Source: Nitrosarchaeum sp. (GTDB lineage Archaea > Thermoproteota > Nitrososphaeria > Nitrososphaerales > Nitrosopumilaceae). Taken from it: a stretch of DNA of 64,000 nt. Location: the NCBI GenBank assembly GCA_023265135.1, contig JAHFUM010000001.1, positions 375,632 through 439,631 on the forward strand. Direction: 5' to 3'. Position 1 is the stretch's first letter. Each line of letters starts with the position of its first letter. Shown here piece by piece: positions 2,448 to 48,043 of the stretch. The position numbers were made by a program, and so were the translations under genes. A model generated the notes under the pieces. That model saw only the letters and a program-made list of their open reading frames with translations. It ran no database searches and was not told the origin of the DNA.

Positions 2448-3359
2448 ATGGCTCAAAGTACTAGCCCTACTGATAGATGTCCTCGTTGTAACAAAGGTAC
2501 AATGTTAACTGATTCTAATACGGGAGAGACGTTTTGCTCCAAATGCGGTTTTGTTGCTATAGATAGGGTTGAACAAGAAGGGCCTGAATGGCGGTCATTT
2601 TCCAAAGAAGATGGAGAAAATAGAACTAGAACAGGCACGCCAACTTCTTTGGCAATGCATGATATGGGTCTAGCCACAATAATTAACCCACAAAACAAGG
2701 ATGCTACTGGAAAACCACTTTCTGCATCAATGAAGAGTACAATTGAACGACTGAGAACATGGGATAATAGAAGCCAGGTTCATGAGCCTGTTGACAGAAA
2801 CTTTAGACAGGCATTTAGTGAATTGGATAGACTAAAGACAAAACTTGCATTATCTGATGCTGTTATTGAAAAGACGGCATATATTTACAGAAAAGCATTA
2901 GATAAGGGTCTTGTTAGAGGGCGTTCAATTCCAGGTCTTATAGCAGCGTCTCTTTATGCTGCATGTAGGAATACTGAAACGCCTAGAACATTAACCGATG
3001 TTGCAAATGGAATTAACATCAAAAGAAAAGATATTGCAAGATGCTACAGATTATTATTAAGAGAACTAGATCTGAAGATGCCAGTTGTTAATCCTATTAA
3101 ATGCATATCAAGAATATCCAGTATTGCAGAACTATCAGAGAAAACAAAAAGAAGGGCAGTGGAGATTTTAGATCAGGCCACCAAAATTGAACTTTCTGCT
3201 GGTAAAGATCCAATGGGATTAGCTGCTGCTGCATTATACTTATCTTGTGTAATAAATGGAGAAAATAAAACTCAAAAAGATATTGCAATTGCTGCTGGAG
3301 TAACAGAAGTAACTATCAGAAATAGATACAAGGGTCTGAAAGAATCTTTGAAATTATAA
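2448..3359 (+). CDS. tfb: Transcription initiation factor TFB (paralogue 1)
   Basis: TFB recruits RNA polymerase to TBP bound at the TATA box. The 303-residue protein has the usual parts in order: N-terminal zinc ribbon (CPRC at about 12-15, CSKC at 31-34), the B-reader/linker region ending with a conserved GLATIINPQNKDA stretch, and two cyclin-fold repeats (about 115-205 and 210-300); the last ends in a helix-turn-helix (TEVTIRNRYKGL). Length is normal. Nitrosopumilales carry many TFBs, thought to give promoter-class specificity. A 208-bp block (2653-2860) and an 84-bp block (3193-3276) are identical in DNA to the inverted TFB gene at 7539-8453, a sign of gene conversion. Confidence 0.97.
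   Translation: MAQSTSPTDRCPRCNKGTMLTDSNTGETFCSKCGFVAIDRVEQEGPEWRSFSKEDGENRTRTGTPTSLAMHDMGLATIINPQNKDATGKPLSASMKSTIERLRTWDNRSQVHEPVDRNFRQAFSELDRLKTKLALSDAVIEKTAYIYRKALDKGLVRGRSIPGLIAASLYAACRNTETPRTLTDVANGINIKRKDIARCYRLLLRELDLKMPVVNPIKCISRISSIAELSEKTKRRAVEILDQATKIELSAGKDPMGLAAAALYLSCVINGENKTQKDIAIAAGVTEVTIRNRYKGLKESLKL
2653..2860 (+). repeat. 208-bp perfect inverted repeat, copy 1 (within TFB)
   Basis: Every base of 2653-2860 matches the reverse complement of 8038-8245. It covers the linker and first part of the first cyclin repeat of two TFB genes in opposite orientation. A second tract, 3193-3276 (84 bp), is also identical to the other gene, with diverged sequence between. Confidence 0.95.
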
Positions 3360-3401: not shown

Positions 3402-3830
3402 ATGAATAAAAAAATAATTATCATTCCTTTGGTGTTAATAATAGTTGTAATGGTATTATCATTTAATCAAACGGATAAAAAGAATAGTAATGTGATTTTT
3501 CATGTTACTTTGGCAGATTCTGATTTATATAAAAATGGAATTTATTCTAATACATTTACTGTAAATAAAGGAGACTATCTTTTCAAATTTGTTCCTAATG
3601 GTGATAGTCCTCAACTTTTAAGTATTTCATTAAAAGGAGAAGACTATAATTTTTCAGAAAATTTCAAGTTGAATGGAACATTACATCAAATGGGAATATC
3701 AGAATATTATACTTGGGATTATGATGGAGAAAAAGTGATTTCAATTCCAGATAAACAACTGATATCCATTGAAATCAATCCAAATGGGAATGTATTAGGT
3801 CCAATATCAGTAGATGTTATTAAAAATTGA
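3402..3830 (+). CDS. Membrane-anchored exported protein of unknown function
   Basis: A 142-residue protein with a short basic N-terminus, one hydrophobic segment (about 5-22, IIIIPLVLIIVVMVLSF) that is a signal anchor or signal peptide, and a beta-rich exterior domain (VIFHVTLADSDLY, GDYLFKFVPNGDSPQ). The domain resembles small exported beta-sandwich proteins but no family can be named and no metal-site residues stand out. It lies 42 bases after the TFB stop. Its 3' end may be overlapped by the antisense end of the candidate RNA on the other strand. Confidence 0.55.
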   Translation: MNKKIIIIPLVLIIVVMVLSFNQTDKKNSNVIFHVTLADSDLYKNGIYSNTFTVNKGDYLFKFVPNGDSPQLLSISLKGEDYNFSENFKLNGTLHQMGISEYYTWDYDGEKVISIPDKQLISIEINPNGNVLGPISVDVIKN

Positions 3831-3833
3831 AAA

Positions 3834-3960
3834 GGCGTTTACCCCTTTACTGCAGAACTTTGAGAGATTTCCTCTCGTGGTCAAGTCGTTAAAACGCTTG
3901 ATTACCTTTTTCGTTCTGCGGGGTAACGCCACTTTAGTCGATAGGAATTATATCCTTCGG
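3834..3960 (-). ncRNA. Candidate structured non-coding RNA, family not recognised
   Basis: The segment folds into a branched structure visible by eye. An outer helix pairs 3834-3845 with 3920-3930 (11 pairs, one bulge), an inner helix pairs 3852-3858 with 3913-3919 (7 pairs), and inside are two hairpins, 3862-3866/3872-3876 and 3881-3889/3894-3901. A further hairpin (3939-3946/3953-3959) lies beside it. The minus strand is favoured because TATA-like elements (3963-3972, or near 3990) precede it and a T-rich tract follows it at 3821-3833. It is too short for RNase P or SRP RNA, has no tRNA T-loop and no C/D boxes. No protein coding is seen here. It could also be a structured 3' UTR of the plus-strand gene. 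Confidence 0.45.
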
Positions 3961-4302
3961 CATTATTTATTGTAGTTACTTCAACTATTTAACATTTAAT
4001 ATGAAAAATTATAAAATTTTATAGAATTTTATGAAAAATTTTATACTATGTAAATTTAAAAGTTCTAATCAAAATAATTAAAAAAATTTAATGTTAATAA
4101 TATGAAAGATGACAATCTTGGAAAATTTTGAAATGATGTATGATTTTGATATAAACTTGATAGAACTTATTCTAGAAAACAAATTAGATTTTGAATAATG
4201 ATTTGTAAAGATATGAAATGAAATAGCCATTTTCAAATTATAAGAATTTATTCTGAAAATATGAAAATACTCATTAAATTCACATATAGTTAGTTTAAAG
4301 AT

Positions 4303-7538: not shown

Positions 7539-8453
7539 TTAAAGAATTATAGAGTCTTTGAGTCCTTTGTAACGGTTCCTTATTGTTACCTCAGTAACAT
7601 TAGCTGCTTCTGCAATATCTCTTTGAGTTTTATTTTCTCCATTTATTACACAAGATAAGTATAATGCAGCAGCAGCTAATCCCATTGGATCTTTACCAGC
7701 AGAAACTTCATTTTCTTGTGCTTGTTTAAGAACATTAACTGCATATCTTTTGGTTTTTTCTGCAATTCCTATTCTGCTAGCAATTCTTGCAACACATTGA
7801 ATTGAATCAGTTACTGGCATCTTTAGATCTAGTTCTTTGACTAATAATCTGTAGCATCTTGCAATATCTTTTCTTTTGATGTTAGCTGCCTGCTCCACAT
7901 CTTTGAGATTTCTTGGTGTTTCAGTATCACGACAAGCTGCATACAGAGCAGATGCCATTAAGGCTGAAATTGAACGCCCTCTAACAAGACCCTTATCTAA
8001 TGCTTTTCTGTAAATGTAGGCTGCCTTTTCAATAACTGCATCAGATAATGCAAGTTTTGTCTTTAGTCTATCCAATTCACTAAATGCCTGTCTAAAGTTT
8101 CTGTCAACAGGCTCATGAACCTGGCTTCTATTATCCCATGTTCTCAGTCGTTCAATTGTACTCTTCATTGATGCAGAAAGTGGTTTTCCAGTAGCATCCT
8201 TGTTTTGTGGGTTAATTATTGTGGCTAGACCCATATCATGCATTGTTAATGATGTTGGTGCACCAGCTCTTGCTCGATCACCATGTTCATCTTGTGTAAA
8301 AGATCTCCATTCTGGTCCAGATTCTTGTAGTTTTTCAGTAATTACAAAACCGCATTTTGAGCAAAACATCTCCCCTGATTCATTATCAGTAACAAGTTTT
8401 CCTTGTGCACAACGCGGACATAATTCTTTAGGGTTTTTTGTTTTATTTGCCAT
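7539..8453 (-). CDS. tfb: Transcription initiation factor TFB (paralogue 2)
   Basis: A 304-residue TFB with zinc ribbon (CPRC at about 12-15, CSKC at 31-34), B-reader/linker and two cyclin repeats; all elements are intact. The protein is nearly identical to the TFB at 2448 across the linker and first cyclin repeat but differs in the zinc ribbon, parts of both repeats (for example the TDSIQCVARIASRIG segment) and its upstream region. DNA identity is total over 8038-8245 and a second shorter tract in the last repeat, while intervening codons diverge, so the two copies exchange sequence. The different N-terminus suggests different polymerase or promoter contacts. Confidence 0.97.
   Translation of the reverse strand: MANKTKNPKELCPRCAQGKLVTDNESGEMFCSKCGFVITEKLQESGPEWRSFTQDEHGDRARAGAPTSLTMHDMGLATIINPQNKDATGKPLSASMKSTIERLRTWDNRSQVHEPVDRNFRQAFSELDRLKTKLALSDAVIEKAAYIYRKALDKGLVRGRSISALMASALYAACRDTETPRNLKDVEQAANIKRKDIARCYRLLVKELDLKMPVTDSIQCVARIASRIGIAEKTKRYAVNVLKQAQENEVSAGKDPMGLAAAALYLSCVINGENKTQRDIAEAANVTEVTIRNRYKGLKDSIIL
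8038..8245 (-). repeat. 208-bp perfect inverted repeat, copy 2 (within TFB)
   Basis: Partner of 2653-2860. Both ends break at synonymous or non-synonymous differences, so the tract is bounded within the coding region, not at the gene edges. Confidence 0.95.
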
Positions 8454-47969: not shown

Positions 47970-48043
47970 GGGGTCGTAGTCTAGCTTGGTATGATACTAG
48001 TCTGGGGGACTAGTGGTCGCAGGTTCAATTCCTGCCGGCCCCA
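47970..48043 (+). tRNA. tRNA-Pro (GGG anticodon)
   Basis: A 74-base cloverleaf is readable: acceptor GGGGTCG with CGGCCCC (one G-T pair) and discriminator A at 48043; anticodon stem CTAGT/ACTAG with loop CTGGGGG, giving GGG; and T arm GCAGG/CCTGC around TTCAATT. No intron and no encoded CCA. Its last base touches the stop of the convergent protein kinase gene. CCA must be added by the nucleotidyltransferase encoded just beyond. Confidence 0.95.

Follow-up and report, generated by a model that had tools for sequence, protein, structure and literature searches.

The stretch of DNA between an exported-protein gene and an SDR gene in a Nitrosarchaeum genome raises the question of whether it holds an RNA gene and, if so, of what kind. 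It lies in a window of 64,000 nucleotides (the whole stretch of DNA that was analysed, to which all positions refer unless a contig or locus is named), and the initial annotation proposed that it encodes a small RNA on the minus strand. GC-rich small RNAs of archaea stand out by their GC content in AT-rich genomes, and the high GC noted at this place is evident, with a fraction of 0.44 at 3850-3949 vs. 0.09-0.31 nearby. The two stacked helices with two enclosed hairpins were found exactly where they had been placed, i.e., P2a pairs GGCGTTTACCCC (3834-3845) with GGGGTAACGCC (3920-3930), P2b pairs GCAGAAC (3852-3858) with GTTCTGC (3913-3919), and hairpins P3 and P4 are enclosed by both (Table 1). 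The further hairpin described next to them, P1, is also present, but rather than only adjoining the structure it sits inside a conserved frame of nine codons (hereafter the mini-frame). Similarly, the extent of 3834-3960 needed a small revision, as the minus-strand RNA, about 130 nt long, runs from approximately 3964 down to 3827 and passes the end first given by a few bases. Read 5' to 3' the order is P1, P2a, a one-sided internal loop, P2b, a junction with P3 and P4, and a T run; the P4 loop is G-N-R-W-U in most copies. A 151-nt stretch folds with -47.4 kcal/mol on the minus strand (z -5.48) and with -56.1 kcal/mol on the plus strand (z -6.46), and in both cases none of 200 shuffled sequences folded as well.

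Table 1. Coordinates of the RNA gene, its elements and its paralogs (positions in the window, or genome:contig:positions for paralogs B and C).
Feature	Position	Strand	Evidence
RNA gene, paralog A (5' mini-frame, closing helix, three-way junction, T-rich end)	3827-3964	-	R1 match of 161.9 bits, homologs and covariation
TATA box TTAAATA	3986-3992	-	First T 29 nt before A of start codon
Leaderless 9-codon frame ATGCCGAAGGATATAATTCCTATCGACTAA (MPKDIIPID, stop)	3934-3963	-	Start, length and stop kept in 89/91 distinct copies
Hairpin P1, within mini-frame	3938-3960	-	78.8% of cells paired; both-side changes in 7/7 pairs
P2a 5' strand, starts 3 nt past stop codon	3920-3930	-	95.6% of cells paired; both-side changes in 9/10 pairs
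P2b 5' strand	3913-3919	-	96.5% paired; both-side changes in 7/7 pairs
Hairpin P3, sequence variable	3881-3901	-	92.5% paired; both-side changes in 7/7 pairs
Hairpin P4 GAGAG-GAAAU-CUCUC, sequence nearly invariant	3862-3876	-	97.3% paired
P2b 3' strand	3852-3858	-	Pairing and covariation
P2a 3' strand	3834-3845	-	Pairing and covariation
T-rich 3' end TTTTCAATTTTT, likely termination region	3822-3833	-	TTTT near 3' end in 75/91 copies
Paralog B	G000:C14:46105-46237	+	Window's own genome
Paralog C	G000:C16:104458-104583	-	Window's own genome

The fold is held together by compensatory changes. The initial annotation had suggested looking for these in relatives, where they turned out to be abundant and the spacer itself is kept. 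In an alignment of 83 sequences made with the covariance model R1, 92.1% of the cells are standard pairs and both sides have changed in 33 of 36 pairs, figures that are to be read with the alignment being fitted to the structure, and thereby favouring it, and with kinship among the sequences inflating the counts. The covariation score was 0.334 compared with 0.160 ± 0.005 for shuffled alignments, none of which (0/500) scored as high, and it was at most 0.078 when the pairing partners were slid. The outcome was the same in a 63-row alignment of the stronger matches only, and an independent sequence alignment gave the same base exchanges as the model alignment. Subfamily C follows the same plan with P3 and P4 sequences of its own, although P1 is not formed in the same way there.

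Several observations bear on which strand is read. The TATA-like element and the T-rich end that had been pointed out on the minus strand are both there (Table 1). TTAAATA occurs within 50 nt upstream in 82 of the 91 distinct copies, starting at -28 or -27 in 75 of them, and was seen in the same slot in only 2 of 1820 random windows; an A-rich block lies 5' of it. The SRP RNA gene of the same genome has the TATA-like sequence AAATATAA at -30 to -23 relative to the 5' end modelled for it, and as this distance is close to that between the TATA box and the AUG of the mini-frame, transcription would be expected to start with the AUG or with the base preceding it. With its TATA box at a fixed distance in most copies and a 3' end of its own, the RNA has the promoter and end expected of an independent small RNA gene. 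Read on the minus strand there are 180 G-U cells vs. 59 A-C or C-A cells, and this excess together with the conserved promoter favours the minus strand. At its T-rich 3' end the RNA overlaps the final codons of the convergent exported-protein gene, the stop codon of which ends at 3830. It could be argued that the element is instead the 3' UTR or terminator of that gene, as it lies directly behind it and the plus-strand fold is somewhat better. This is very improbable, because the TATA box and the start-to-stop frame are conserved on the minus strand, the G-U excess is found on that same strand, and the paralogs lie behind unrelated genes. Structure, strand and promoter are thus supported by comparison of the copies.

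The RNA is confined to one family among the genomes searched, which supports the proposed lineage specificity at the family level. Of the 300 genomes of the order searched with model R1, 126 have the RNA, and all of these are among the 132 sampled Nitrosopumilaceae, whereas no match came from the 168 genomes that belong to other families; a weak match (24 bits, locus L107 in genome G027), which is without a start codon, was left out of these counts. When 61 genomes were searched at the DNA level, 24 had the element, every one of them from the window's own family, and the window's genome had it twice. With the broader model R2, each of 27 well-assembled genomes from the family proved to have between one and four copies, and 24 genomes from other families, searched with milder filters, had none. 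The exact core motif occurs in database records that bear the names of Nitrosopumilus, Nitrosarchaeum and other thaumarchaea. Full-length copies were also seen in records labelled Hyphomicrobiales and Chitinophagaceae (L172:5926-6063 and L175:53-190), and these "bacterial" records are probably archaeal contigs misbinned with bacterial genomes. Phage records and viral contigs held no match to the RNA. One genome (G267) carries two copies in tandem, at 1501-1625 and 1810-1933 of locus L077, about 185 nt apart.

The window's genome has three paralogs, A, B and C, at unrelated loci. In most genera copy A lies between a divergent SDR gene and the convergent exported-protein gene. Copy B occupies other intergenic stretches, and copy C lies between an aroA-like and an aroC-like gene, on the opposite strand (genes were named by eye from the sequence). 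The downstream gene is convergent at A (the exported protein), at C (aroA-like) and at most B loci, so that most copies have no codirectional gene behind them, and no type of gene is common to all copies. A subfamily C copy in the latter arrangement, which is found in many genomes, is that at L090:2959-3084 on the minus strand. The gene beside copy A (3402-3830, plus strand) encodes an exported protein of 142 aa without a Pfam match, and relatives of it (family F0) adjoin copy A across several genera. Two similar TFB (TFIIB-like) genes also face each other about 4 kb apart in the window, at 2448-3359 (plus strand) and 7539-8453 (minus strand), the former being the one covered by the Pfam scan. 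Several copies at different places in a genome could also be expected of a short non-autonomous mobile element with palindromic ends, but we consider this hardly credible, as the copies are diverged paralogs with promoters of their own and compensatory changes, the main paralogs keep their neighbours across genera, and no sign typical of recent movement was seen. Since paralogs with the same promoter and layout occur at unrelated loci with no shared type of neighbour, we infer that the RNA acts in trans.

None of the known RNA classes compared accounts for the element, as the initial annotation had surmised from its layout. At the gathering cut-offs of Rfam 15 there were no matches over the RNA of the window and 20 loci with diverse members, and a relaxed Rfam search over the element stayed at chance level (best 14.4 bits vs. 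a cut-off of 75). RNase P RNA and SRP RNA were both found elsewhere in the genome, above cut-off, and with ARAGORN the only tRNA or tmRNA in the window is a tRNA-Pro at 47970-48043. By inspection, an H/ACA guide does not fit, since the 3' end consists of GCC and a T run where an ACA-type box would be expected, and the one large internal loop is one-sided, unlike a bipartite guide loop, nor does a C/D guide, the box pair C (RUGAUGA) and D (CUGA) being absent from the conserved columns and Rfam giving no C/D match. Complementarity of the three RNAs to the available rRNA stretch, contig C13 covering only a portion of the operon, does not exceed 10 nt, which is about what is expected by chance. 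In subfamilies A and B, P4 almost always contains GAGG, and the 16S end is GGATCACCTCCT; a role of P4 as a Shine-Dalgarno mimic may be a lead, the match being partial and made mostly of bases that are themselves paired. No description of the RNA was found in the open-licence papers searched.

Since a leaderless frame of about nine codons apparently stands at its 5' end, it would be only partly right to call the RNA non-coding. The start codon is ATG in 83 and GTG in 6 of the 91 distinct copies, and begins at the second base of the RNA in nearly all. Counting the start codon, the frame has nine codons and then a stop in 81 copies, eight in 7 and ten in 1. Two copies (L074 and L089) are without a start codon but keep the remainder. 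At the A locus of genome G193 lies a decayed, AT-rich copy (L184:1535-1662), outside the 91, that has lost the full mini-frame. All of TAA, TAG and TGA are used as stops, with at least 19 switches on a tree made from the rest of the RNA, and no copy with a start has a premature stop. The frame is also kept in all 17 members that differ at 10 or more of its 30 positions, whereas in the other two frames of these members stops are scattered. P2 follows the A of the start codon by 33-34 nt in most copies (76 of 89) and by 30 nt in 7 others; the stop codon lies 3-4 nt before P2a, and copies with eight codons keep about 3 nt. These comparisons support that start, stop and length of the mini-frame are under selection, and the simplest reading would be that a ribosome must reach the stop at a fixed place against P2.

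The peptide seems to be another matter. Synonymous changes numbered 41 vs. 42.7 ± 5.1 expected by chance, i.e., they are no commoner than chance (a comparison of low power over 24 bases), which indicates that length and stop position are kept and not the peptide. A messenger for a micro-protein, in which a peptide of 8-9 residues is the product and the folded part a 3' UTR, would explain the conserved start, length and stop as well as the occurrence of exactly MPKDIIPID in many copies of subfamily A and of a K3/N6 pattern in subfamily C. It is nevertheless rather unlikely, as the 58 distinct frames specify very different peptides without any synonymous excess and the three paralogs of the window's genome encode three different ones. 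The identical peptides of subfamily A moreover accompany near-identical DNA, as P1 would require; because P1 overlaps the frame, some of the constraint in it is structural. That overlap, the covariation of P1 and the two copies with no start might on the other hand suggest a purely non-coding structured RNA, the frame being a by-product of constraints on promoter and hairpin. This too is unlikely, since subfamily C keeps the start, stop and length with a P1 that forms differently, all three stop codons are exchanged for each other with no premature stop in copies that have a start, and P2 shifts along with the stop in the 8-codon copies. The family is very probably, as judged from its sequences, one of structured RNAs with a selected and translated mini-frame.

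How the mini-frame may serve the RNA can be set out as follows. A free-standing gene on the minus strand would give a transcript of about 130 nt with its 5' end at, or one base upstream of, the AUG. A ribosome would initiate on the leaderless AUG, read about eight further codons and meet the stop 3-4 nt before P2a. On terminating, the ribosome would cover some 12 nt beyond the stop codon, and its mRNA channel would then open most of the P2a 5' strand, so that translation could act as a switch on the fold, the stability or the accessibility of the junction made up of P2b, P3 and P4. The junction would subsequently act in trans, and P4 would be its likely site of contact with a protein or the ribosome. 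Folding without the P2a 5' strand kept P2b, P3 and P4 in subfamilies A and B and gave no common second structure, and the alternative folds available with a ribosome bound at the stop differ between subfamilies. That the RNA is transcribed and translated, that P2a is opened and that the junction works in trans is what we infer from these patterns. An alternative is an attenuator or cis-antisense device, in which the ribosome spoils the closing helix and T run and thereby permits antisense read-through into the convergent gene. The T run directly behind P2a and the convergent genes downstream of A, C and most B copies would suit it, but the neighbours differ between paralogs, a codirectional gene follows at L074, L087 and L093, and one type of target would be expected of so conserved a sensor, which makes this explanation quite improbable. 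The best explanation overall, which we give an even chance of being correct, is a free-standing RNA acting in trans, the fold or fate of which is set by a ribosome on the mini-frame; the ribosome switch taken by itself comes close to an even chance at best.

Marine archaea include few groups as abundant as the Nitrosopumilaceae, which are difficult to manipulate, and to our knowledge little is known of their regulatory RNAs. A structured RNA that is family-wide, multi-copy and outside Rfam is a ready target for annotation. It is unusual for a mini-frame to be kept in start, stop and length and not in peptide, and this signature points to the ribosome as partner; with the peptide free to change, it suggests that the work of the RNA depends on being read by a ribosome. 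As leaderless messages are common in archaea, such an RNA offers a direct way to ask how they are started and monitored. It is tempting to speculate, although we hold this tentatively and somewhat short of even, that the family represents a regulatory RNA class of its own and a new one, whose leaderless mini-frame, fixed in length and free in peptide, parks one ribosome against a conserved helix, so that translation (leaderless initiation or termination) is sensed and the output is delivered in trans by the junction.

The RNA can be compared with a number of known systems. HgcC is likewise GC-rich, present in several copies per genome and of unknown function. The copies described for T. kodakarensis overlap protein genes or have their starts inside them (PMC4247193); the RNA described here differs in having no Rfam match, a fixed TATA promoter in most copies and a start-to-stop mini-frame. 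Tan1, an RNA of 229 nt from marine group II Euryarchaeota, is also reported as a lineage-specific structured RNA of marine archaea without known function, but it belongs to another phylum and the accessible part of its description, by which the two are set apart, mentions no mini-frame (PMC5069720). With tmRNA the present RNA shares a single short frame and a folded body, although it is without a tRNA-like domain or CCA end and its frame has its own AUG. Leader-peptide attenuators such as trpL and the erm leaders have a short translated frame followed by a helix and a T-rich terminator. Here, too, a short frame stands directly before a helix and T-rich end, and the position of the ribosome would be the likely signal; unlike in those leaders, no same-strand gene to be regulated lies downstream in the window or at most loci, where the next gene is convergent, the frame is leaderless and there is no repeated regulatory codon. 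Dual-function small RNAs such as SgrS/SgrT carry a short frame the protein of which matters, whereas in the present RNA nothing but length and stop position is visibly conserved, purifying selection on the protein not being apparent in the low-powered synonymous comparison above. The RNA thus resembles attenuator leaders that have no downstream gene, and small RNAs that carry a frame with no conserved product.
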